Assembly: GCF_932294415.1 (NCBI RefSeq)
Contig: NC_065543.1
Location: 42,244,277-42,308,276, forward strand
DNA from: Quercus robur
Taxonomy: Eukaryota; Streptophyta; Magnoliopsida; Fagales; Fagaceae
DNA length: 64,000 bases
Direction: 5' to 3'
A model generated the notes under the pieces. It was not told where the DNA came from. It ran no database searches and saw only the letters and a program-made list of their open reading frames with translations. The first letter of the stretch is position 1. Each line of letters begins with the position of its first letter. This document shows, piece after piece, positions 12,342 through 61,204 of this stretch. Made by a program: the position numbers and the translations under genes.

Positions 12342-13777
12342 CACCTAACAAACACCAAAGTAATTTAGAACTAGCACTAATAAGCAACCAAAGTAATTTT
12401 GGGGGGGGGGGGGGGGGGGGTACTATCTAATGCTAAAACTGAAAATTCTATCAAGTGCAAGATAAGATCAAGTCATTGCCAACTATATAATAACACAACT
12501 CTATCAAGTGCGAGATAAGCACAGCAGCCAAGAAAGTCAAGCACAGCAGCCAAAGCATAGTTGTTGTAAATTGTGCATTAGACTCAATGAACATTCAGTC
12601 AATGATATAAGAAGCAGGGTCCAGTAAGAAAAATAACAGCAGATCCCAAGCCGAATTTAGGTACCCATAGTAGAAGATCTTACGAACCTACATTACCTAC
12701 CAATAGTTCAGTCTCACCAAAATAGCATAAGTACTTTATATTGTCTTTGTGAAGATATCACAAACCACTTTCTAGAAGCAACATAATTGAAGTTGAAATT
12801 TATCTACTAGATAATGCAAGGGAAAATTTAAGATTGCATTCACAATTGACAATCTTCTCAGTAAAGTCTACCTTAAATCAAGTACAAAATCACCGAAACA
12901 ATTGAGAACATCATTACTTTAATTGAAAGTCCATATAAAAAATGTCTTGGCTTTTTTCAATTTTGCATTAAGACATTAAACTACAGCCACCAACTCATGG
13001 ATCTGAATTAAAATTCTTGATGTTTCAACAAAACAAGAGCCACAATTAATGGATAAGAGAGCAATGAAGAAACCACTTGAAGGTGATAACATAGAATACG
13101 GTTATGATCAAGTGATAACATAGAATACAAGATACAAATCCTAACAACTCTAGGATTGTGATAAAATAGGATAAAGTTGTTTCCTTTTCAAATACCTTTG
13201 TATTTCACAATACTCTTGTATTTCAAATTTTGTATCTATACAAATTCTATTATATATAAAAAAAAACCTTGAACGAACTAATTATATTACAAATTCTATT
13301 ATAAATAAAAAGACTAACTGTATCGGTACAAATTCTAACTTTTTTTTTTTCATTAAAGAGGATTTTATTGATAGCTAATAAACGTGTAGCACAGAGACAT
13401 CAACCAAGACATAAAAAACAGAGTCATAATAAACCACAACTTCCAGAACAAAACAATAAGACAGAGTCATAACACACTACAAACAGAATTCCAATGAGTC
13501 CCAAAATTAACACTTTCATGCATGCCCTCACTTGAATTATAGGTTCACATTATTCAGTTCCTGGTACTCAAAATTTTAGAGTAGAACAATCTTTTAATTT
13601 ACGCCGTTTTTAAGGCTTGAACTAATAGGAAACCCTAAAAAATTAGTTTAGAGAAACTCCCAAGAATCTTGCTCGAAACCCAAAAAAAAAAAAAAAAAAA
13701 ACCCTAAAATCTCAATGAGAAAAACCCATACCTTTTTAGAGAAATTTGCCCCAAAGTGTGTCAATAGAGCTTCATCC
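12342..13777. other. Spacer with poly-G runs, no recognisable gene
   Basis: G runs lie at about 12180-12192, inside the first exon of the neighbouring pseudogene, and at 12400-12420. A T run at 13341-13352 is followed by TCATTAAAGAGGATTTTATTGATAGC, which looks like the reverse of a poly-A tailed 3' end of a LINE fragment. An A run lies at 13682-13700. Otherwise I see no gene, RNA or tandem repeat in this stretch. Confidence 0.4.
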
Positions 13778-14847
13778 AAGTGGAGACTTCTAGTTGATAT
13801 GTTTTAAGAGTTAAGACATATTGAACTGGACCGCTGTGAGATTTATTATTCTCCTAACGACTGCTAAATAAATAATAAATCTCACGACTTCTATTTGCAT
13901 GAACTCTTAATCCTAAGAGAAAAATGGACCTGATCATAGAGTATAGATTGCTTTGATATATCAGGAGTGAGATCTAAAGTAACGGTCAAAACCTTAGTAT
14001 ATTGGGCAGCTACATTTAGTATTAATGGAACATATATTCTCAAGATGAGATTCATAGTCTCTTAACAGAGATATAAAATATTCCCTTAAGATAAGTTTCA
14101 TGGATTCAGTTATTCAGAGAGTTAGGTCTAATCACTTTAGTAAGAAATTACTAAAATATATATTTATGAAATTGGATTTCATAAATATATAATGAATAAC
14201 TTAAAGGATTAAACTGGGTACTCAAGGATTAAGATGTAGTAATCTTCAAAGAGGCAGTCTACATTCATGCCTTTGAATTACTATGAATATTTTATGAAGG
14301 GGTTGCATGTATAATAAAGTCTTGGGATATAATTTATTAATAAGGCCTAGAGTGCAATTATATTTATATAGTGGTATTAAATATAATTAATGGTAACTTT
14401 GGACTTGTCAAGAGTTGACAGAAAAGCCCAAGACCCATTGGAACTAGTGTCTTATTGGTCCCTTTTGGTCCCACTCCAAGTCACACACTAAAACCCAATT
14501 GGATAATCAGTTAGTTATAAAGGGAGAAACATACATAATTTTATTTTAAGAGAGACATCATTGTGAAATGGTGTGTATGTGTGAGTGAAACCACTTGATT
14601 ATTCTCCCTTGGAAACTGATTGAGAGACTACACTTCTTGGGCGTAAAGTGGAATTGGAGTGAAGATTAAAAGTTTTCCCAAGTACTTCTAATCTTTTGTT
14701 TTGAATTTCACTGCATTAAGGAACGCTACCTTGTTCTTAAATTCTGAAATTTACATAGTGCATGTTATCATTCATGAATGAAATAAATCCATATTTGATG
14801 CTTCCGCTATGTGTTTTGTATGAGATACAAAACCAGATTTTCCAACA
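13778..14847 (+). repeat. Left LTR (partial) of the copia element
   Basis: The sequence matches the right LTR from about 20478 onward, sharing AGTGGAGACTT near the start and ending in AGATTTTCCAACA. The primer binding site follows directly. The first roughly 295 bp present in the right LTR are not seen here. Confidence 0.85.
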
Positions 14848-20182: not shown

Positions 20183-21633
20183 TGTTAGGATTAGTGCCCT
20201 TAAATCCTATTGTAAGATGTTATGTATGTTATTATGTATGGCTTAATGTCGTGATTAATAAAGTTTCTTTATTATTATCTAAAATAATGGTAATATGAAT
20301 ATTCAGACATTATCATATAGTTCATGAGATGCATAGTATGTGATTTAGTCACAGAAGATATAGATCACAAGTTCTTTGTAAACTTAGAATTTTGGTTCGT
20401 AGTCGGTGATGAAATTGGGTATTTCATCTGTGAAGACTATAACATATCAACTAAGATGATTTGTCTTGATCATGGAAGTGGAGACTTTTAGTTGATATAT
20501 TGATATGTTTTAAGAGTTAAGACATATTGAACTAGACCATTGTGAGATTTATTATTCTCTTAACTATTGTCAAATGAATAATAAATCTCATGACTTCTAT
20601 TGGCATGAACTCTTAATTCTGAGAGAATAATGGACCTGATTATGGAGTGTAGGTTGTTTTGATATATTAGGAGTGAGATCTAAAGTAACGGTCAAAACCT
20701 CAGTATGTTGGGCAGCCACATTTAGTGTTGATGGAACATATATTCTCAAGATGGAATTCATAGTCTCTTAACGGAGATATAAAATATTCTCTTGAGATAA
20801 GTTTCATCGGTTTAGTTATTCAGAGAGTTAGGCCTAACCACTTTAGTAAGAAATTACTAAAGTATATATTTATGAAATTGGATTTCATAAATATATAATG
20901 AATAACTTAAAGGATTAAACTGGGTACTCAAGGATTAAGATGTAGTAATCTTCAAAGTGGCAGTCTACATTCATGACTCTGGATTACTATGAATTTTTTA
21001 TGAAGGGGTTGCATGTATAATAAAGTCTTGGAATATAATTTATTAATAAGGCCTAGAATGCAATTATATTTATATCATTGTTATTAAATCCGTTTCGTTC
21101 CGTTCCAGCTGGAATGACCAGAATTTCTCGTACTGGGATGCAATCCAGAACGGTAATACCACTCGTTCCACCTCGGGTCCAATTCCGGCCAGTTTTGGAT
21201 TATTCCGGCCATTCCGGCAAATTTCGGTCAGTTTCGGCCAAAAATGTAAATTTCGGCTGGTACCATTTTTTAGAAGAAAAAATAGGAAAAAAGAAAAAAG
21301 AAATATCCCTAAACTGATAAACTCGTTACTTAGCACAGCATGTCATTACCTAGCGTCGATCGCCTAAAAAAAAAACCCAGCCATCCCAGAGGTCACCCCT
21401 TCTTCTTCTTTTTTGCTCCGTCTCAGACTCTGCCAGTTTGCTCTTCTTTCGTTTTTTACTTTAGTTTTCGCTTGTCAAGTTTTTGCTTTGTTTTATATTT
21501 GTGTTTGCCTGGTAGACTTTTAGTTTGCTGACCCCACCCATGTGACAAAGTTTTGGAAATGACAAAACTCAAAAAGCTGACAAAAGAGTTTGATTTCAAA
21601 CATATATTTATTGAGTCTTACCTGTTCCAACGT

Positions 21634-21682
<49 letters not shown>

Positions 21683-22485
21683 TTATTATATTGTTTTTAG
21701 TTGTTATTTTTCATTATTTAATTACATATTTATGTTTTAATATTCTAAAACGGTATTTGTTATGTAATAACTAAATGACTTGTGTTATTTGAAGTTTACT
21801 TATTTGGATCAATAATTTTATATTGTATAAGAAAATATAAATATATATTATTTTTAATTTTTTTAGAAAACCCGAGGCACCTTGAAACGGTCCACCGAAA
21901 TAGACCGGTACCTAAATATTCCGTTTCACTAGATAAATTGAAACAGGGTCCAAAACGGTATTCATAACATTGATTTATATAGTGATATCAAATATAATTA
22001 ATTGTAACTTTGGACTTGTCAAAAGTTGACAAAAAAGCCCAAGGCCCGTTGGAGCTAGTGTCTTATTGGTTCCTTTTGGTCCCACTCCAAGCCACACACT
22101 AAAACCCAATTAGAAATGCCAAATAGGCCAGCTTAATTAGATAATCAGTTAGTTATAAAGGGAGAAACATACAGAATTTTATTTTAAAAGAGACATCATT
22201 GTGAAATGGTGTGTATATGTGAGTGAAACCACTCAATTATTCTTCATTGGAAACTGATTGAGATACTACACTTCTTGGGTGTAAAGTGGAATTGGAGTGA
22301 AGATTAAAAGTATTCCCAAATACTTCTAATCTTTTGTTTTGAATTTCACTGCACCAGGGTATGCTATCTTGTTCTTAAATTTTGAAATTTACATAGTGCA
22401 TGTTATCAATCATGAATGAAATAGATCCATATTTGTTGTTTTCGCTGTGTGTTTTGTATGAGATACAAAACTAGATTTTCCAACA
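20183..22485 (+). repeat. Right LTR of the copia element, carrying an insertion
   Basis: The LTR starts TGTTAGGATT and ends TTTTCCAACA, giving the usual TG...CA ends with a short terminal inversion. Without the insertion at 21076-21972 and its extra 8-bp duplication, its length would be about 1.4 kb. Confidence 0.8.
21076..21972. mobile_element. hAT-like non-autonomous DNA transposon, 8-bp target duplication
   Basis: The element lies inside the copia right LTR. The left end CATTGTTATTAAATCCGTTT and the reverse complement of the right end, CAATGTTATGAATACCGTTT, are terminal inverted repeats. ATTTATAT flanks both sides (21068-21075 and 21973-21980), and the uninterrupted left LTR has this site once. 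Length is 897 bp. The interior contains CCGTTCC, CCGGCC and TTTCGG phrases and a long TA run at 21640-21680, but no transposase. An 8-bp duplication and a CA-starting end fit the hAT superfamily. Confidence 0.8.
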
Positions 22486-29064: not shown

Positions 29065-29305
29065 TTGTATGTTTGGTTAGGATTTTGGAGATAATGGAAA
29101 AAGGAGAGTGAAAAATAGGAGAGAAAATTAGTGGGAGGAGTGTTGGTTGAGAGGAGGAGAGAAAAATGATGGGATCTGACTATTTTCTCTTTGGGTCTAC
29201 CAAAACTTAATCTCTCCAAAATGGGAAGAAAATGGGAGTGAAAATTCGGTGCAAAATTTTGGATGAAAATACCCACCCACTTGTCAATGTTCACATCATA
29301 TATGT

Positions 29306-29937
29306 TGTAAGGACACGATTCGTAACGACCCGTAACAGTGTTGGGTTCGTATGTAAAAAGGCCCAAACAATATCATTTATAGAGCGTGGGTTTGAAAGAC
29401 TAGGCCTTGGTCACCAAACGGTGGGTTTTTCGTGGCGTTCATACATGATTATGGCGTTTTCGCACTAAGAGTCTTTCTCCTGGAGGCGGGCTGGGAGGCT
29501 CAGTTTTTGGCCATTTTTCCCAGCCCCCTCTCTGGATTCCTTCCTTTTCCTTTTATACTCACATGTGTTCCTTATCCTTCGTCCACGTGTAGGATCGACT
29601 TTTCCCAGATTGATACTTGTCCCATCAGCCCATACCCAGAGTGGTTGGGGGTGGTTGTAAAAGCTGAAGAGTATGGCTCTGTCAGGTGCAGAGTATTGAA
29701 TGGCAGTAAGGGCAGCTTTCCCTGGTCGTTATACTTTCCAGCGTATCCTTCTCTATTGACCTAGATATTTTAGATTTTCTTCCAAACTGGTCCTATACCG
29801 TTTTTGCCCTTCCTTCCGGTGAGACCTCAGACATGCCGAGGACTGAATCGTCCTTGGCTGTATCCCAAGGCTATTTTATACTTGTATTACAGAACCTGGG
29901 CCATAACTTTCCTCGGCTTGGGCCTTTGGGCCCCACA
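29306..29937 (-). mobile_element. Solo LTR of the same family as the element at 51627-60956
   Basis: The 632-bp segment matches the LTRs at 51627-52305 and 60279-60956 over its whole length (TGTAAGGACACGATTCGTAA, CTGGAGGCGGGCTGGGAGGC, CCTCGGCTTGGGCC), though it is slightly shorter than they are. It is flanked by TATGT on both sides (29301-29305 and 29938-29942). No internal sequence follows, so it is a solo LTR left by LTR-LTR recombination. Orientation is minus, as judged from the family's primer site at 60262-60278. Confidence 0.85.
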
Positions 29938-29999: not shown

Positions 30000-30166
30000 G
30001 CACTATTTGTTTCTTATAATATCTTAGGTACTATTCGTTAATTCTTTTCTTTTTTTCCCATCAATCATGGGTTTTTTTTTAGAAATCAATTTTGGGTTCT
30101 TGAAATTTTTTGTGCTTTAAAAAAAAAACAAAAGTGCCCATTTATATATATATTTTTAATAAAAAT

Positions 30167-30850
30167 AGTGGGGCCCGGCCCAAAAACGATGGGCTATTCC
30201 AAACGCAGGCCCAGCCGAGGAGCGTCCTGGCCGAAGAGAAGCCTCATATAAAGCGTTACTCAGCCCCAATAGCGCCAAGGAAACCTGTTCGAGGAGTAAC
30301 TCCTCCTCGGACATCATGAAGCCCAGACGAGGAACTTTCCCCAGCTATTTCAGCTCATCCTCACAACATATAAAAAAAATTAAATCCAAAATATCTCATG
30401 GAAGGCTACCACCACATTAATTGCGCCCCAACCACCCTCTTGGCCGCATTAATGAGGAAAAGACACCTGAACAGTACCGCCTTGGCCTCTGCAACTCACG
30501 AAGGGACTGATGAGGGCGTCTGATGGGACAGGTGCTCAAGTGGATGCTTAGATGATCAACAGGTGTAAGGTTGAGATGAAAAGAAGAGAACTATATAATG
30601 TAATGGAGTCCCTCAAAGAAGGGGACGAGAGAGGGAGATCAGGAACAAAAAGAAATAAAATCATACTTGAGAAATATCCATTCTTGTGTTTTTATTTTCT
30701 TTTTGCAAATAATACTGTCCATGCATTAGACCGAACAAGTTCACTGAGGCTAAGTTCTTTGACCCATCCTCTACAAATATTTATTGTGGGTTGCGCTTTG
30801 GGCCAAGGCCTAATCAACATAAGTTGGACCAGGAAAATCGTGCAACTACA
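30167..30850 (+). repeat. Left LTR of the Tat element
   Basis: It runs from GTGGGGCCCGGCCC (first base differs from the right copy) to GTGCAACTACA and is followed by the primer site. A CATATAAAAA motif near 30367 could be a TATA box. Confidence 0.9.
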
Positions 30851-31107
30851 ATTGGCGCCGTCTGTGGGAAGAGCTAAGGCATCAGCTAGTGCAACGGTCG
30901 AGCATGGAAGAACTAGATCCGCACCAGGAGGATCCTCACCAAGCTAACTCCCAACGAACACGACCCGCCGAGTCCCAGAGGCAAAATAACCCAACCAACC
31001 CAGGCGGCAGGGGGAATTGTGAGGGAAGTGTGCATACTATCCGGACGAGCCAGAGTCACACTCAGACAGGAAGTCACGTGTCTTAGAGGCGAAATAGTCA
31101 CCAGGCC

Positions 31108-39820: not shown

Positions 39821-40077
39821 CCGGGAGGAGAGAGAAAAGATCATCCCTGCCTAAAAATACGAGAAGAAACGATGGCCGTTCGATCCATGCCAAGCCGTTG
39901 GATGAAGGGAACATAACGCCTCCAGAAGTTAATGGCCGCGCCTCGTAAATTGTAGCGCGTCAAAAGTAACAGTCCGCACGCGCGCCCCACGATCTCCTTA
40001 TTTCCATCCTCTCACAAACATCAAAACCCCGCTTTTCTCCTCGGAGGGAGGTAAAAACCGGAGTTTTGAGGGGCTAT

Positions 40078-40761
40078 TGTGGGGCCCGGCCCAAAAACGA
40101 TGGGCTATTCCAAACGCAGGCCCAGCCGAGGAGCGTCCTGGCCGAAGAGAAGCCTCATATGAAGCGTTACTCAGCCCCAATAGCGCCAAGGAAACCTGTC
40201 CGAGGAGTAACTCCTCCTCGGACATCATGAAGCCCAGACGAGGAACTTTCCCCAGCTATTTCAGCTCATCCTCACAACATATAAAAAGAATTAAATCCAA
40301 AATATCTCATGGAAGGCTACCACCACATTAATTGCGCCCCAACCACCCTCTTGGCCGCATTAATGAGGAAAAGACACCTGAACAGTACCGCCTTGGCCTC
40401 TGCAACTCACGAAGGGACTGATGAGGGCGTCTGATGGGACAGGTGCTCAAGTGGATGCTTAGATGATCAACAGGTGTAAGGTTGAGATGAAAAGAAGAGA
40501 ACTATATAATGTAGTGGAGTCCCTCAAAGAAGGGGACGAGAGAAGGAGATCAGGAACAAAAAGAAATAAAATCATACTTGAGAAATATCCATTCTTGTGT
40601 TTTTATTTTCTATTTGCAAACAATACTGTCCATGCATTAGACCGAATAAGTTCACTGAGGCTAAGTTCTTTGACCCATCCTCTACAAATATTTATTGTGG
40701 GTTGCGCTTTGGGCCAAGGCCTAATCAACATAAGTTGGGCCAGGAAAATCGTGCAACTACA
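40078..40761 (+). repeat. Right LTR of the Tat element
   Basis: It starts TGTGGGGCCCGGCCC directly after the polypurine tract and ends GTGCAACTACA. It has the same length as the left LTR. Confidence 0.92.
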
Positions 40762-41167
40762 AAAATATATATAAAAAGTGTTATTTTTGGTTTTATCTAG
40801 TAGGGACATAATTGTAAATTTATACAAATCACATTTTATATCCTTCCATATTTCTTTTCAGCCAAACAAAAATTTCTATCTTTCTATTTTTCCATTTTCC
40901 TATTCAAACACAAATGAGGGAAACTAAAATCCCTTCTATCATTTCACTTTTCAATCTTACCAACCAAACGAACCCTAAGTGTTATACCATAGATTTGCCA
41001 ATTAAATCCAAACATATAATTGCTTTGAATTTAATTCTACTTGAGAAAGATAATATTATTTGTGTAGTTTTGGTCTAAATCATAGCCCATACACACTAAA
41101 GTATTAGCAAGTACAATTGATTAAAAAAGCTATCAATTGTTGGGAAAAATATTGTCTCACATTAGTT

Positions 41168-51530: not shown

Positions 51531-51626
51531 TTTCCTTGAAAAAAAATTGCAAAATTTAAAACACTTTCAAATGAGAAATATAGATAGATTAATTTAAAAA
51601 ATCTAATATATTATAACAATTATACT

Positions 51627-52305
51627 TGTAAGGACACGATTTGTAACGACCCGCAACGGTGTTGGGCTCACACGTAAAAAGGCCCAAACAATATCATTTG
51701 TAGAGCGTGGGTTTGAAAGACTAGGTCTTGGTCACCAGACGGTGGGTTTTTCATGGTGTTCATACATGGTTAAGTCGTCTTCGCCCTAAGAGTCTTTCTC
51801 CTGGAGGCGGGCTGGGAGGCTCTGGTTTTTGGCCATTTTTCCCAGCCTCTTCCTTTGGATCCTTACTTTTCCTTTTATACCGGCCCGTATCCTTTATCCA
51901 ACGTCCACGTGTAGGATCGACCTTTCCAAGATTGATACTTGTCCCATCAACCCATACCCAGAGTGGTTGGGGGTGGTTGTAAAAGCTGAAGGGTATGGTT
52001 CTGTCAGGTGCAGAGTATTGAATGGCAGTAAGGGCAGCTTTTTCTTTGTCCTTGGTCGTTAAACTATCCAGCTTATCCTTCCCTATTGACTTAGATATTT
52101 TTAGATTTTTTCCAAACTGTTCCTATACCGTTTTTGTCCTTCCTTCCAGGAGGACCTCGGACATGCCGATGACTGAATCGTCCTCGGCCGTGTCCCAATA
52201 CTATTTTGTACTTGTATTACCTATCCTTGGCTATAGCTTTCCTCGGCTCGGACCTTAGGCCCCAATGAATAAATGGGTCAGGGCCGCAAATTATTGGGCC
52301 CCACA
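51627..52305 (-). repeat. Left (3') LTR of the non-autonomous element
   Basis: On the plus strand it reads TGTAAGGACACGA to GGGCCCCACA; on the minus strand it starts TGTGGGGCCC and ends CCTTACA, the usual TG...CA. Confidence 0.85.
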
Positions 52306-53450
52306 ATAGCCCCTCAAAGTCCTGCTGTCCGACCTCCTGGTCGGAGAGAAGGGTTTTGGTAATGCCAAGCCTTTATTACGGCTCGTTTAATTCTGTCCTT
52401 CATTAATGTTGGCGTCTCTTCATCTATCCAGGAAACATACCGAATTACTAGACATTCTTTTGAATTCATTCATGATGCGTTACTGTCGCTTCATTACCCG
52501 AAACGCGCCTTTAATGATTTCCCTTTGCGAGACCATTTAAATTCGACGGTTATTGACGGTGTGGGGAAGTGGAATGGGTATATTCTCGTTTACCAATTTT
52601 CTTGTAAATATGGATAGATTAAATGCCTCCCGTTTTGCCCTTCATATAAGAAAGAAAACAAGAGGTTACCTCTCTTACACAGAGCCCTTTCAATCCTTTT
52701 GAAGTCTGAAAATCCTTAGCTTCCCCCAGAGTTTCCCTTATCCGCTTGCTTACACCTTGAATCGTGATAAGTCCAAGATAGGAGTGGGAATGAAGAGACC
52801 ATACCCTTCCCAGAAATGCTACGTTCTTGCGAAGCTCAAAATGGCTCGGTCAGGGCAGGGATGGGAGAGACTCAAGATACTTTTCATCCTCCTTTCAGTC
52901 AAAATCCGAAACAGGGGCTCGTCGCGTCAAACTTTTGGTACGGCTGAGCTGGGATCACCCATTATCAGTACCAGCCGCTCTCTTATGAGCATAGCTAACA
53001 TGACACAAGCGTATTAGGAGTTAGGACTGACGCAGGGACAAAGTATCCCTGCTTCTTCCTCTCTTCCTTCACTGGTGCCTCCTTTTGCCTCTCTTTCTTC
53101 TTCTTTCCACCACCAGATCCATCCTGGTGCTTTTCTTTCTTCCTCTTCTTCTCCTCTCCCACCAAGGAAGGTCCTCCTCTTAATATGGGTGCCAATGGGG
53201 CAAAGTTTGGAAAGACTTGGGAGCAGAGCTTAAAAAGATTTCTGTTTGTTTTTATTTTTTATTTTTTTTGTAACTCTTTTTCTATATAGGCTTGTTTAAG
53301 CTCTTCATTGTACACTGTAATACCTCTTTATATTAATAAAAGTCAACATTGCTTAATTTTGTACATTCTATCTCTTCTTTTTAAAATAATTGTGCCATGA
53401 ATAAACGTACTACCATATGACTTCTTTTCTATTATTGTATTCTGAACGAT
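52306..53450. other. Internal region of the non-autonomous LTR element
   Basis: The part next to the LTR is GC-rich and holds CATATAAG at 52643-52650, read antisense to the element, in the place where the Tat element at 30167 has the TATA box of its antisense gene. A long CT/CTTC-rich stretch (53045-53160) yields a Lys-rich low-complexity frame on the minus strand. No protein domain is recognised. Confidence 0.5.
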
Positions 53451-53720: not shown

Positions 53721-53925
53721 GTTGTATACCCCAAATTTGAACGAGGTGATGGCTGAATGCTCGATGCCATGTAGGAAGTAATCATTCGAGGATATATAAC
53801 TCAAAAATGTACAACCCCTGTTGGTCGCTGAGTAATAAGGCGTTTCGCCATCTTCCTAATAACTTTCCTAGCCTTGACCTTTTCTGTTATTTGGTCCGAG
53901 GACTGAACGACTTAGAATTCTTCTT

Positions 53926-54344
53926 AAGTAGCTGACTTCTCCATAGGTTTGAGTCCGAGGACCATGCAATATCCTGGTTCTGTCCAAAACTTGATTTTGA
54001 TAAGTAGTTGGTTTCCCCACAAGTTTGAGTCCGAAGACCATGCAACACCTTGGTTCTGTCCAAAACTTGATTTTGATAAGTAGTTGGTTTCCCCATAGGT
54101 TTGAGTTCGAGGACCATGCAATACCTTGGTTCTGTCCAAAACTTGATTTTGATAAGTAGTTGGTTTCCCCATAGGTTTGAGTCCGAGGACCATGCAATAC
54201 CTTGGTTCTGTCCAAAACTTGATATTTAAGTAGTTGGTTTCCCCATAGGTTTGAGTTCGAGGACCATGCAATACCTTGGTTCTGTCCAAAACTCAGTTTT
54301 CTCATCTAAGTAGTTGGTTTCCCCATAGGTTTGAGTCCGAGGAC
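53926..54344 (-). repeat. Tandem array of ~76-bp units, left part
   Basis: Units begin at AAGTAG(T/C)TG near 53926, 54002, 54079, 54155, 54231 and 54307; the last is cut by the hAT element. Each has TTTCCCCATAGGTTTGAGT, CCGAGGACCATGCAAT and CTTGGTTCTGTCCAAAAC phrases. Read on the minus strand the unit aligns with the array unit of the Tat element at 36319-36790. Confidence 0.9.
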
Positions 54345-54609
54345 TAGGGATGGCAATTTTGGCCCGACCCGCGGGTACCCGGTCTGGCCCGACCCTAATG
54401 GGCCGGGTTTTACCTGGTCCGATTAAGGATAGGGTCGGGTATGGATTTTTAAAAAAAAACCCGAAGCGGGTCCGGGTCGGGTCCGGGTTTTATTAAAAGA
54501 ACCCGAAACCCGGCCCGAAACCCGCCCCATTTAAAACCCGGTACCCTAAATTACTAAAATGCCCTTTATATATATAAACCTATAATTCTAACCTAAATCC
54601 CCAAATCTG

Positions 54610-54925
54610 AAATCACTCACTCAGCCTCACGCAGCTCTCCCTCACGCAGCCCTCCCTCACGCAGCCCTCCCTCACTCCCTCACTCCGACTGGCAGCTCTC
54701 CCTCACTCCGTCGCCCATCTCCAGTCACGCACAGCTCTCCCTCACTCCCTCACTCCGACTGGCAGCTCTCCCTCACTCCGTCGCCCATCTCCAGTCACCC
54801 ATCTCCAGTCACCCATCTCCCTCACTCCCTCACGCAGCTCACGCAACTCTCCCTCACTCCCTCACGCAGCACGCAGCACACAGCTCTCCCTCACTCCCTC
54901 ACTCCGCAGCTCATCTCCAGGTTTG
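54610..54925. repeat. Subterminal CTCCCTCACTC-type repeats in the hAT element
   Basis: CAGCTCTCCCTCACTCCCTC, CGTCGCCCATCTCCAGTCAC and CACGCAGC phrases recur many times. The pair CCAGGTTTGTGTCACCGGTTCTTT occurs at 54917 and again at 55144, so part of this block has been duplicated downstream. Subterminal repeats are common transposase-binding sites in hAT elements; that role is inferred. Confidence 0.7.
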
Positions 54926-55940
54926 TGTCACCGGTTCTTTTTTTTTTTTTTTTTTTTTTAAGAGACCTGAAAGGGTATTGTTCTGTTCTTAAACGATTGA
55001 TTATTGTTCTGTTCTCAGGAACATTTGGATGATAAGCATCTGAGTCGATTCTTGGAAGCTGATACCCTTGTCAATCTCAACGAATCCACTTAACGGACCA
55101 CCTCACTCCCTCACTCAGCTCTCCCTCACTCCGCAGCTCATCTCCAGGTTTGTGTCACCGGTTCTTTTTTTGTTTTTTTTTTTTGCTGTAATGTTTTTTT
55201 TTTTGCTGTAATGTTGTTGAGCTTCATTGTTTTTGTATTTTTAATTTTAAGTTTAATTTTTTTTTGCTGTAATGTTATGGAGCTTCATTGTTCTTGGTCT
55301 TTTCTTGATTTTGACAAGTCAATGTTGACATCTATGTTATTGAAATTGATTCAACAGTATTTTTTCATCTCTGTATTTGCCTCCACTTATTATCTCTCTG
55401 CCTTCTTAGTATAAGACACATGAATTCTGTACCAAGCTTTTGATCTATTTACATTTGATCTAATACAGATTGCTTTTTTCTGATTGGTTTTGTATACTTA
55501 TACGGGTTGCTTTTCTGGTAAGGTTTTAAAGACAGTATATTGTTATTCTAATAGAATTAGAAATTTCCCAGTAAGCATAGTTGTTATACTCTTTGGATTT
55601 CTATTATGTCTTGTGGAATATCTTGTATTGGTGATATTTGGGTATTGATATTTGTTTTTACTATGTATTTGGTGGATTGATATGTGGCCCAGGGAATGTT
55701 GGGATTCCAATTGTTTACCTCTTGAGAAGTAAACACCAGAATTTCAGATACCTTTTGTAATTTTCTTTTTTTAGAGAATTTGGAGTTTAATAGGATTGGC
55801 TTATTTATTTTTGATTGGCAATTTTGTATATGATTTTGTAATTTGTTTGAGAAATTGAATATCCCTTTTTGCAAAATGATTAGTAGCTCAAAGCTTGCTC
55901 TTGAACAAAACTTATCAAATTTCAACATGCAGATCCTAAA

Positions 55941-58785
55941 ATGGAGATGGAAGACACAAACACAGACACAGACAAATCTGGTTCTTCCTCGCCAAGTGGT
56001 TCTCCCTTGAGAACCGGATGTTGTCCCTTGCCGACTTTGCGGTCTCCTTCGCCATTTTCACGGTCACCCTCACCATTGTCACCTGGCAGTTCACCCTCAG
56101 GATCACCATTAAATGAGTAAGTGTTTGAATTTGTAGTTAATCAATGAGTATGTGTAATAATAAATTTGTGATAATTTGTTTTGATTCTAACTCCCAAACT
56201 TTTGAACCAATTAGGAATCCGAAATCTCCGACGGTGGACTTAGTAGGAGAAGACTTAGAGGTAGAGGAACAAGAAGGGACAGAGAGAGAGCAAGAGCCTA
56301 CAAATGAGGACTTGGATACAAGTAGAAAAAGAAAGACTACCTCAGATGTTTGGTCTCACTTTACAAGGAAGAAAGTTGACGGAAAAGTTAAAGCCCAATG
56401 CCATCATTGTAACAAACTTTACTTGGGTGAGTCTAACCAAGGTACAACTCATTTACGTAATCATTTAGCAAGATGTCCACGAATGAAATTTAAAGATATA
56501 AGGGATATGAGACAACAAGTTTTGATCAAACAACAAAATAAGGTGGATGGAACCATGAGTTTAAGTACTTATCAATTTGATCAAGTTAGAGTGAGGAATA
56601 AGCTTGCCCGTATGGTCATCCTACATGAATATCCTCTTTCAATGGTTGACCATATTGGGTTTAAAGAATTTGTGACCGATCTTCAACCTATGTTTAAACT
56701 TGTCACAAGAAATACTTTGAAGAGTGACATTTTTAAGATCTATGATAATGAGAGGGAGAAAGCTTTGAAGATGATGGACAAGAATGGAAGTAAGGTGGCC
56801 ATTACAACCGATATGTGGACTTCAAGTAACAAAAAGAGAGGGTTTATGGTCATTACCGCTCATTTCATTGATCATACTTGGATGTTGCAAAGCCGGGTTC
56901 TAAGGTAATTTTTTTATCTATAAATTGAATGTTAAAGACTTTACATTTAGAATGATTTTTGAATTATGTTATAATTATTCATATTATTTTTCTAGGTTTG
57001 TTTATGTTCCTTCTCCACACATAAAAGAAGTTCTTGCTGAAGTCCTTGTTGATTGTTTTTTAGAGTGGAACATTGATAGGAAGTTGTCTACAATTACTGT
57101 TGATAATTGTAGTACTAATGATGCCATGATTAGACTTCTTTTGAATAAGCTTGATACTAGTTCTCTTATGTTGGGTGGGTCTATGTTGCATATGAGGTGT
57201 GCTGCACATATTTTGAATTTGATTGTTCAAGATGGGTTGTCTCTTATTGGTGATGGTATTGAGAGGATTCGTGATAGTGTGATTTATTGGACTGGATCAC
57301 CAAAAAGAAGGCAAAAATTTGAAGAAAATGCACGTCAATTGCGTGTTCAATGCACCAAAGAGTTAGTCTTAGATTGTAAAACTCGTTGGAATTCAACTTA
57401 CTTAATGCTTTCTACTGCATTGATTTATAAAGATGTTTTCTCACGTTTGGCTAAACGTGAAATATCTTATACTTGTTTACCATATGATTATGATTGGGAG
57501 TTAGCCAAAGATATTTGTGGGAGGTTGGAGTTGTTTCATAGTGCGACTGAGTTTTTCTCTGGTCGTAAGTACCCTACAACTAATATGTATTTTAATGTGG
57601 TGTGTGAGTTGAAAATTGCATTGAATGAATGGAGTGTGTATTCAAATGAGATGATAAGTACGATGGCGGAAAGTATGCTTGCTAAGTTTAATTCTTATTG
57701 GGCTAATGTTAGTGTTGTTATGGCTATTGCTGCTATCTTAGATCCAAGATATAAGATGAAGTTATTAGAATTTTATTATCCTAAAATTTATGGTGATAAT
57801 TCTAATTTGGAGATTGAAAAAATTAAGAATCTTTGTTATGATTTACTTGATGAGTATGGTGATATAAATGAGTCCTCTGTAGATAATGAAGGAAGTTCCC
57901 ATGTTCCTGCTAGTACTTCAAGCCCTGTGGCACAAATGAAATTTAGGTTGAGTGGGGCAATGTCATCTTTTGCTAAGTTTAATTCTTATTGGGCTAATGT
58001 TAGTGTTGTTATGGCTATTGCTGCTATCTTAGATCCAAGATATAAGATGAAGTTATTAGAATTTTATTATCCTAAAATTTATGGTGATAATTCTAATTTG
58101 GAGATTGAAAAAATTAAGAATCTTTGTTATGATTTACTTGATGAGTATGGTGATATAAATGAGTCCTCTGTAGATAATGAAGGAAGTTCCCATGTTCCTG
58201 CTAGTACTTCAAGCCCTGTGGCACAAATGAAATTTAGGTTGAGTGGGGCAATGTCATCTTTTGATGAGTTTGTGAATAATAGTTCAAGTAGTTCAAAGAA
58301 ACATGGGAGTGCTAGAATGGAATTTGATCATTTCATTGATGAGGGAGTGTTGAAGAGGAGTGAAGATTTTGATATTTTGGGATGGTGGAAAAGTAATGGT
58401 TTAAAGTATCCTACTTTACAAAGGATTGCAAGAGATATTTTAGCCATTCCTATTACAACTGTTGCTTCAGAATCGGCCTTTAGCACTAGTGGGAGACTTT
58501 TAAGTCCACACCGTAGTAGGCTACATCCCAAGACTATAGAGGCAATGATGTGTGCTCAGAATTGGTTATGGAGTGAAATCAACGGTTAGTAATTGTCTAA
58601 TTTCTATTTATAAAATTAAAATTGTAGTTTTATATTTGCTAGTTACAATTTGATATTTCATTCTTTAATTCATTGTTATTGTAGGTTCTTCAACTATGTC
58701 TGGAGATTGTACCGTTCAAACAATTCTTGATGATGGGGAGCCTAATGAAGAGGATGGGAGTTGTGTCACAATTATGGATGATTAG
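55941..58785 (+). CDS. hAT transposase (BED finger, RNase H-like core, hATC), four exons
   Basis: Exons 55941-56116, 56215-56904, 56996-58584 and 58685-58785 join in frame at GT-AG borders to give 851 residues. Exon 1 encodes a Ser/Pro-rich start. A BED zinc finger at about 100-155 has VWSHFTRKK, CHHCNKLY and HLRNHLARC. The RNase H-like core has AITTDMWTS and TVDNCSTNDAM, likely around the two catalytic Asp residues, and the CAAHILNLIVQDGL phrase. A DUF4413-type segment has WANVSVVMAIAAILDPRYK. The C-terminal hATC dimerisation domain has WWKSNGLKYPTLQRIARDI and ASESAFSTSGRLL. Residues 518-614 are repeated exactly as 615-711 by a 291-bp tandem duplication, making the protein 97 residues longer than a 754-residue form. 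No stop or frameshift is seen. Confidence 0.88.
57681..58262 (+). repeat. Exact in-frame 291-bp tandem duplication in the transposase gene
   Basis: Copies at 57681-57971 and 57972-58262 appear identical by eye. Each starts GCTAAGTTTAATTC and ends ATGTCATCTTTT. The length is 97 codons, so the frame is kept. Each copy carries the full DUF4413-like WANVSVVMAIAAILDPRYK segment and the acidic linker after it. Confidence 0.9.
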
Positions 58786-59130
58786 ACATTTTGTAATAAT
58801 TTAGTAGCCATTTTAATTTCTTAAACTTGTTGGATTAATTTGTTGGTTTGTAATTATTTTAAGCCTTTTTAGCATTTTGTAATTTTTTAGCCTTTTTAAT
58901 TTGTTGGTTTGTGGAGGATAAGACATTTTGTAATTTCTTACACTTGTAGGATTTGTTTTGTAACTTTTTATTTTTGAATTTCTTGAACTTGTTGGACTTT
59001 TGATACTTAGTTCTTGGACTTATTGGATTTATTTTATTTTTATGTTTAGTTGGTGAATTTAGTTATGATTTACTGATTTATAGATGTATTGATGTTTGGT
59101 GATTTATTGATTTATAGTTATGATTTATTG
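58786..59130. other. 3' untranslated region of the hAT transposase gene
   Basis: The sequence is T-rich with repeated TTTTGTAATTTNTTA and CTTGTTGGATT phrases. No further coding sequence is visible. Confidence 0.5.
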
Positions 59131-59280
59131 GCTGCCCAATGAATGGGCTTGAATTGGCTGCCTAATAATGCCTTGAATGAGCTTAAATTGGCTGCCCAAT
59201 GAATGGGCTTGAATGGGCTACCTAATAATGCCTTGAATGGGCTTAAATTGGCTGCCCAATGAATGGGCTTCAATTTGGCA
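59131..59280. repeat. Subterminal ~60-bp repeats at the hAT 3' side
   Basis: GGCTGCCCAATGAATGGGCT starts three units near 59130, 59190 and 59250. CTAATAATGCCTTGAATG lies between them. The block precedes the GC-rich right end of the element. Confidence 0.75.
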
Positions 59281-59500
59281 AAAAACAGCTCAATGGGCTT
59301 TAAAAAAAAAAAAAAATTAGTTGGGCCAGATTTGGGCCCAACAGGTTAAACGGGGCCCGCGGGGCCCGGCGGGGCGGGTCTGGGCCCCAGGAAAAAAACC
59401 CGATTATTATTCGGGCCGGGCCTGGGTTTAGGGTCTTGGCCCGCGGGTCGAGCCTGGGTATGCAAAAACCCGGCCCGAACCCGACCCGTTGCCATCCCTA

Positions 59501-60030
59501 CCGAGGACCATACAATACCTTGGTTCTATCCAAAACTCAGTTTTCTCATCTAAGTAGTTGGTTTCCCTATAGGTTTGAGTCCGAGGACCATACAATACCT
59601 TGGTTCTGTCCAAAACTCAGTTTTCTCATCTAAGTAGTTGGTTTCCCCATAGGTTTGAGTCCGAGGACCATGCAATACCTTGGTTTTGTCCAAAACTCAG
59701 TTTTCTCATCTAAGTAGTTGGTTTCCCCATAGGTTTGAGTTCGAGGACCATGCAATACTTTGGTTCTGTCCAAAACTCAGTTTTCTCATTTAAGTAGTTG
59801 GTTTCCCCATAGGTTTGAGTCTGAGGACCATGCAATACCTTGGTTCTGTCCAAAACTCAGTTTTCTCATCTAAGTAGTTGGTTTCCCCATAGGTTTGAGT
59901 TCGAGGACCATGCAATACCTTGGTTCTGTCCAAAACTCAGTTTTCTCATCTAAGTAGTTGGTTTCCCCATAGGTTTGAGTCCGAGGACCATGCAATACCT
60001 TGGTTCTGTAAAAAACTCAGTTTTCGATAC
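59501..60030 (-). repeat. Tandem array of ~80-bp units, right part
   Basis: The array cut by the hAT element continues here with about six more units (near 59551, 59631, 59711, 59791, 59871 and 59951). They have the added phrase CTCAGTTTTCTCATCTAAG, so they are about 4 bp longer than the left units. They are highly similar to each other. Confidence 0.9.
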
Positions 60031-60278
60031 GTAGTTGGGGGGAAATGACCCCTCAGCTATGGCCTGGGACCTTGGTTTTAGGGGGATTGGCTCCTCGGCC
60101 AAGCCCCTAGAACCATCCATGCGATTGACGCTACAAAGCGTAGCCCCTAGTCAAGAATCATAGCCCCTAGTGGAACTCTACGCTAGAACACTATAACCGG
60201 CTGTTAGAAATGACAAGGGGACTTTCTCGACCTATTGTCTATGCCAACACACAAGCCTTTCCCACAGACGGCGCCAAT

Positions 60279-60956
60279 TGTAAGGACACGATTCGTAACG
60301 ACCCGCAACGGTGTTGGGCTCGCACGTAAAAAGTCCCAAACAATATCATTTGTAGAGCGTGGGTTTGAAAGGCTAGGTCTTGGTCACCAGACGGTGGGTT
60401 TTTCGTGGTGTTCATACATGGTTAAGTCGTCTTCGCCCTAGGAGTCTTTCTCCTGGAGGCAGTTGGGAGGATCTGGTTTTTGGCCATTTTTCCCAACCTC
60501 TTCCTTTGGATCCTTACTTTTCCTTTTATACCGGCCCGTATCCTTTATCCAACGTCCATGTGTAGGATCGACCTTTCCAAGATTGATACTTGTCCCATCA
60601 ACCCATACCCAGAGTGGTTGGGGGTGGTTGTAAAAACTGAAGGGTATGGTTCTGTCAGGTGCAGAGTATTGAATGACAGTAAGGGCAGCTTTTTCTTTGT
60701 CCTTGGTCGTTAAACTATCCAGCTTATCCTTCCCTATTGACTTAGATATTTTTAGATTTTTTCCAAATTGTTCCTATACCGTTTTTGTCATTCCTTCCAG
60801 GGGGACCTCGGACATACCTCGGACTGAATCGTCCTCGGCCGTGTCCCAAGACTATTTTGTACTTGTATTACCTATCCTTGGCTATAGCCTTCCTCGGCTC
60901 GGGCCTTGGGCCCCAATGAATAAATGGGTCAAGGCCGCAAATTATTGGGCCTCACA
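60279..60956 (-). repeat. Right (5') LTR of the non-autonomous element
   Basis: It matches 51627-52305 with about 4% difference. On the minus strand it is followed by the primer site at 60278-60262. Confidence 0.88.
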
Positions 60957-61204
60957 ATACTTTATTAGAAAATAATTGCATCGTTTTAAGAAGAGTTTGA
61001 AACTAATACCTTCTTAGAACAAGAGATTGTCTAGAGATTTTAGGATAGATGAGGGAGATCGAATTAGAGAAACAAGAGGAAAAAAAAGAGTGAAGAATAG
61101 AAAAGAGGAGAAATATATAAAACATAATTAAAAAGATATGTTCATCACATCAACAGTTTGTAAAATTTTTTGTCAAAAAGTTTGTATCTCTAGCATTACT
61201 CTAA

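Follow-up and report, generated by a model that had tools for sequence, protein, structure and literature searches.

The window (64,000 bp of Quercus robur DNA, in contig C39 of the host assembly) contains a hAT transposon with an exact tandem duplication inside its predicted transposase gene. The element spans 54345-59500 (5156 bp). It starts with the terminal inverted repeat TAGGGATGGCAA, ends with the inverse, TTGCCATCCCTA, and has a perfect 8-bp target site duplication, CCGAGGAC, on either side. The features are as follows.

54337..54344: left 8-bp target site duplication, CCGAGGAC
54345..59500, + strand: hAT element, ends TAGGGATGGCAA / TTGCCATCCCTA
55941..56116, + strand: exon 1 (predicted), with ATG at 55941 and the common in-frame ATG at 55947
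56215..56904, + strand: exon 2 (predicted), with BED zinc finger PF02892 and the first Asp motif (D258, by motif)
56996..58584, + strand: exon 3 (predicted), with PF14372, PF05699 and both 291-bp units
57679..57969, + strand: unit 1, 291 bp
57970..58260, + strand: unit 2, 291 bp, equal to unit 1
57954..57985, + strand: junction of the units, 32-base pattern, one match in the host assembly with up to 3 mismatches
58685..58785, + strand: exon 4 (predicted), with the stop codon
59501..59508: right 8-bp target site duplication, CCGAGGAC

We found that the four exons, joined unaltered, give a stop-free frame of 851 residues from the ATG at 55941. The exon model is a prediction based on splice signals and on conservation in sibling copies of the element, with which the window copy has the four-exon structure in common. 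The frame matches PF02892 (E = 6e-7) and PF05699, the C-terminal hAT dimerization region (E = 5e-31). The domains, the element ends, the target duplication and the open 851-codon frame uphold the first-pass annotation in its reading of a four-exon hAT transposase without stop or frameshift. The element resembles plant hAT transposons (BED, PF14372, PF05699) in its terminal inverted repeats, 8-bp target duplication and domain order. The closest plant hAT group is presumably the one labeled Ac-like.

The predicted length of 851 residues is less secure. The frame is open from the ATG at 55941, but this ATG is not conserved. Among 10 aligned siblings, the codon is ACG in six (L009, L010, L013, L014, L017, L018), ATG in three (L011, L012, L015) and ATA in L016. 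Because it reads ACG in 6 of 10, the safer count is 849 residues, from the in-frame ATG at 55947 that is common to the siblings; L013, L014 and L017, with ACG at 55941, have this next in-frame ATG. Compared with four full-length siblings, the ATG at 55941 is a private C to T change of the window copy.

Exon 3 contains two tandem units, 57679-57969 and 57970-58260, that are identical at 291 of 291 bases at an offset of 291. Three further bases match across the units, so the unit boundaries can slide by up to 3, and the codon register 57681-58262 used at first describes the same event. The identity of the units and the preserved frame confirm the exact in-frame duplication as originally claimed. 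In the predicted protein, unit 1 corresponds to residues 518-614 and unit 2 to residues 615-711, an addition of 97 residues. An exact tandem repeat of 291 bp is not a chance occurrence, and no statistics are needed to say so. It is the only tandem repeat with a period greater than 21 in the coding core of this copy. The non-coding ends of the element contain further, shorter tandem arrays.

The duplicated segment was initially described as DUF4413-like sequence plus a linker. We take DUF4413 to be the former name of PF14372, at present called hAT-like_RNase-H. The linker (~38 residues) is indeed included, but the domain is repeated only in part: residues 2-59 of a single unit match PF14372 positions 43-100 of 100, and the linker follows. 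On the exon-3 frame, PF14372 matches in one stretch in the single-unit sibling L014 (103.8 bits) and in two stretches in the window copy (161.8 bits).

Both units lie upstream of the likely catalytic Glu. The C-terminal part of the protein aligns with the Hermes transposase (PDB 4d1q, 2bw3, 8edg; E = 6e-17). Hermes is distant in sequence, and the alignment is limited to this part and the RWNST motif; unlike the window copy, the matched chain has no doubled segment. The Glu of SESAFS (E781) aligns with residue 496 of 4d1q (counted along the alignment), which corresponds to residue 572 of 8edg via the offset between the chains. We assume that residue 572 is the catalytic Glu of Hermes. This Glu and the C-terminal region are intact in the doubled copy. 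The putative catalytic Asp residues, D258 and D325, were placed by motif only.

We found that sibling elements have a single unit. The first-pass annotation had proposed counting the units in other copies of this hAT family. We searched the host assembly (785.7 Mb) with the unit and obtained 41 matches, representing the best 40 of 130 candidates. Two were the window's own units, and the other 39 loci were fetched. All 39 (of the best 40 of 130 candidates) contain one unit each, 91.3 to 99.7% identical to the window unit. Five of the 39 (L011, L012, L013, L014 and L017) have an open single-unit frame of 750-754 codons, with a single terminal stop and GT..AG at all three introns. Since open single-unit siblings exist, a single-unit protein ~97 residues shorter represents the normal form. 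Both ends were found in four siblings: the target site duplication is perfect in L009, L010 and L014 as well, and mismatched at the exact ends in L013.

Internal duplication as a habit of the family was considered and rejected. Tandem repeats (period of at least 20, coding core) are present in 15 of the 39 fetched siblings, all with a period of 21 or 26, and no repeat with a period greater than 26 was found in the coding core of these 39 (best 40 of 130 candidates). Two degenerate siblings, L036 and L037, lie ~240 kb apart on contig C4 (near 76.59 and 76.35 Mb, respectively). They have equal length to the first stop and an identical set of 47 stops, and are probably one insertion copied by segmental duplication.

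The junction between the units was found only in the window. The 32-base junction pattern occurs once in the host assembly when up to 3 mismatches are allowed; the reversed control does not occur. A protein query of 65 residues spanning the junction yielded 150 matches (the best 150 of 379 candidates), among which the window locus was the only end-to-end match (residues 1-65). The next longest match in this set was 44 residues. No second genomic copy with the doubled unit was found by the junction scan (up to 3 mismatches) or among the best 150 of 379 protein matches.

We conclude that this is very probably a recent tandem duplication private to a single member of a young plant hAT family. The siblings are single and this copy has two identical units, so that parsimony places the event on the branch of this copy alone. 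An assembly or consensus error, with a single unit in the true genome, might be expected in a repeat family with near-identical siblings, and the 39 of 39 fetched single-unit siblings (best 40 of 130 candidates) would fit such an error too. However, the junction links sites that share 3 bp, whereas misjoining of repeats would require long overlaps. The copy is otherwise clean, with a perfect 8-bp target duplication and an open frame. Because a 3-bp junction would not be expected from repeat overlap, we consider an artefact unlikely.

The identity of the units gives no date by itself. Zero differences in 291 bases bound the divergence of the units at 1.0% or less (95%), and this would also permit a doubled unit that is ancestral and was lost in the siblings, or that was kept identical by gene conversion. 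Such a history would require many exact losses, given single units in all 39 fetched siblings (91.3 to 99.7% identical; best 40 of 130 candidates), and we regard it as extremely improbable. Relative to four full-length siblings (ungapped columns of 55941-59500), 12 substitutions are private to the window copy; 6 of these are C to T, and 0 of the 12 fall within the unit. Dating by comparison of the units was therefore rejected: the bound of 1.0% and the absence of private substitutions in the unit do not place the event within the copy's own branch.

We rejected L014 as a clean sister of the window copy. Over exons 2-4 without the second unit, L010 and L014 tie, each with 6 differences from the window copy at 2280 sites. 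A T at 57860 is present in both units of the window copy and in the single-unit L014, and in no other of 12 aligned copies; this T therefore predates the duplication. In the leader at 54945-55544, the window copy and L014 differ at 1 of 578 compared sites, compared with 138/491, 184/600 and 185/600 for L009, L010 and L013, respectively. At 54645-54944, the relationship is reversed: there are 57/271 differences from L014, and 8/288, 7/300 and 5/285 from L009, L010 and L013. By these sequence comparisons, the family's leaders are mosaics, and no one tree fits the whole element. Stretches of the 5' leader (54645-55544) appear swapped among L009, L010, L013 and L014, the coding parts of which differ by ~0.3-0.5%, a sign of what may be template exchange within the family. 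Since the elements are mosaic, the recency and privacy of the duplication rest mainly on the single units of all 39 fetched siblings.

The microhomology at the breakpoints is TTG (3 bp), and not the TTTTG first reported. At least 3 bp are shared by 6.7% of breakpoint pairs with the same spacing in the sibling L014, so the exact TTG match carries little weight. Under a looser criterion, a match of 9 of the first 12 bases at the breakpoints is reached by 0.14% of positions, in a comparison that was picked post hoc. The slippage proposed at the outset holds as a slippage-like origin, given the exact in-frame tandem units and the breakpoint match, but template switching fits as well, as does end joining between repair products that overlap, and the three are indistinguishable here.

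We suggest the following sequence of events. A break or stalled fork would have occurred within the element. Synthesis would then have resumed at a point 291 bp earlier, or two repair products that overlapped would have been joined, and TTG, inside the looser 9-of-12 match, may have aided the restart or joining. This would have left a tandem duplication, with the frame kept by a one-in-three chance. The predicted protein would contain the C-terminal portion of PF14372 and the adjoining linker twice, which places 97 additional residues before the catalytic Glu.

Related events are described for other DNA transposons. In PMC8277862, Pack-TIRs are associated with microhomology-associated duplications by template switching, with a median homology of 2 bp. 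Like these, the window copy has short breakpoint homology and breakpoints within the element; unlike it, Pack-TIRs, as presented there, capture outside sequence, whereas in the window copy a segment of the element itself is present in tandem. The same paper takes internal breakpoints as favoring breakage within the element rather than excision as the source of the breaks, and on that reading an abortive-gap-repair route is disfavored. Reversed-ends transposition of maize Ac makes tandem direct duplications, according to PMC3744419. That case is similar in being a tandem direct duplication tied to a hAT element, but it is made by reversed Ac ends, and here a 291-bp repeat lies inside one element. 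In the literature searched, no title or abstract opening named a hAT transposase with an internal tandem duplication that is in frame.

The window copy differs from the plant hAT transposons named above in the repetition of 97 residues ahead of the catalytic Glu, which among the elements examined is confined to this copy. Most likely, the encoded transposase would be impaired, or at best tolerant of the insert. A self-inactivated copy is compatible with the data. Because the element ends are intact, mobilization by enzyme from intact siblings could continue. PMC10368747 describes Hermes dimers as held by a swapped insertion-domain helix, and deletion of the helix as still giving active dimers.

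It had also been suggested that the doubled protein could be a new functional form, in which the 97 extra residues would give an active transposase with altered assembly. The frame is kept, with 851 stop-free codons, and the Glu and C-terminal region are intact. However, a one-third chance suffices to account for the open frame, the units are identical, with no divergence under selection, and no second copy of the junction was found (up to 3 mismatches genome-wide; best 150 of 379 protein matches). This suggestion gained no support from the single units in 39 of 39 fetched siblings (best 40 of 130), the unique junction and the open single-unit siblings, and we consider it very unlikely. We would assign an even slimmer chance to the more specific possibility that the doubled segment forms an additional small folded module ahead of the Glu part, giving an active hAT transposase of changed assembly that has yet to spread. 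When siblings are single, a repeat that is exact and in frame within an open transposon reading frame does not point to function. Neither the 39 fetched siblings (best 40 of 130) nor the junction searches gave any sign that the doubled form was selected or has spread. Judged by these searches, the doubled form is not a family feature and was not seen to have multiplied. A mutation of this kind is ordinary for transposons. The private duplication is a further example of the structural mutations gained by individual copies of a young plant hAT family. If the doubled protein were active, it would show how large an insertion the region before the catalytic Glu can accommodate.

The hAT element lies within an array of ~76-80-bp tandem repeats (53925-54344 and 59501-60025), and the repeat unit includes the target duplication CCGAGGAC. 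The array and the element are bracketed by 683-bp direct repeats (51626-52308 and 60278-60959, 96.0% identical). These are probably LTRs and would belong to a short retroelement, with a minisatellite inside it, that received the hAT insertion. A related sequence (87.5%) is present at 29305-29933. A second direct-repeat pair (30165-30851 and 40076-40762; 687 bp, 98.5% identical) marks a probable younger LTR element. A tandem array with a period of ~440-460 bp occupies 1-2300 and continues past the left edge of the window, and dispersed repeats at 13772-14847 and 20470-22485 form two pairs with identities of 87.7 to 90.8%.
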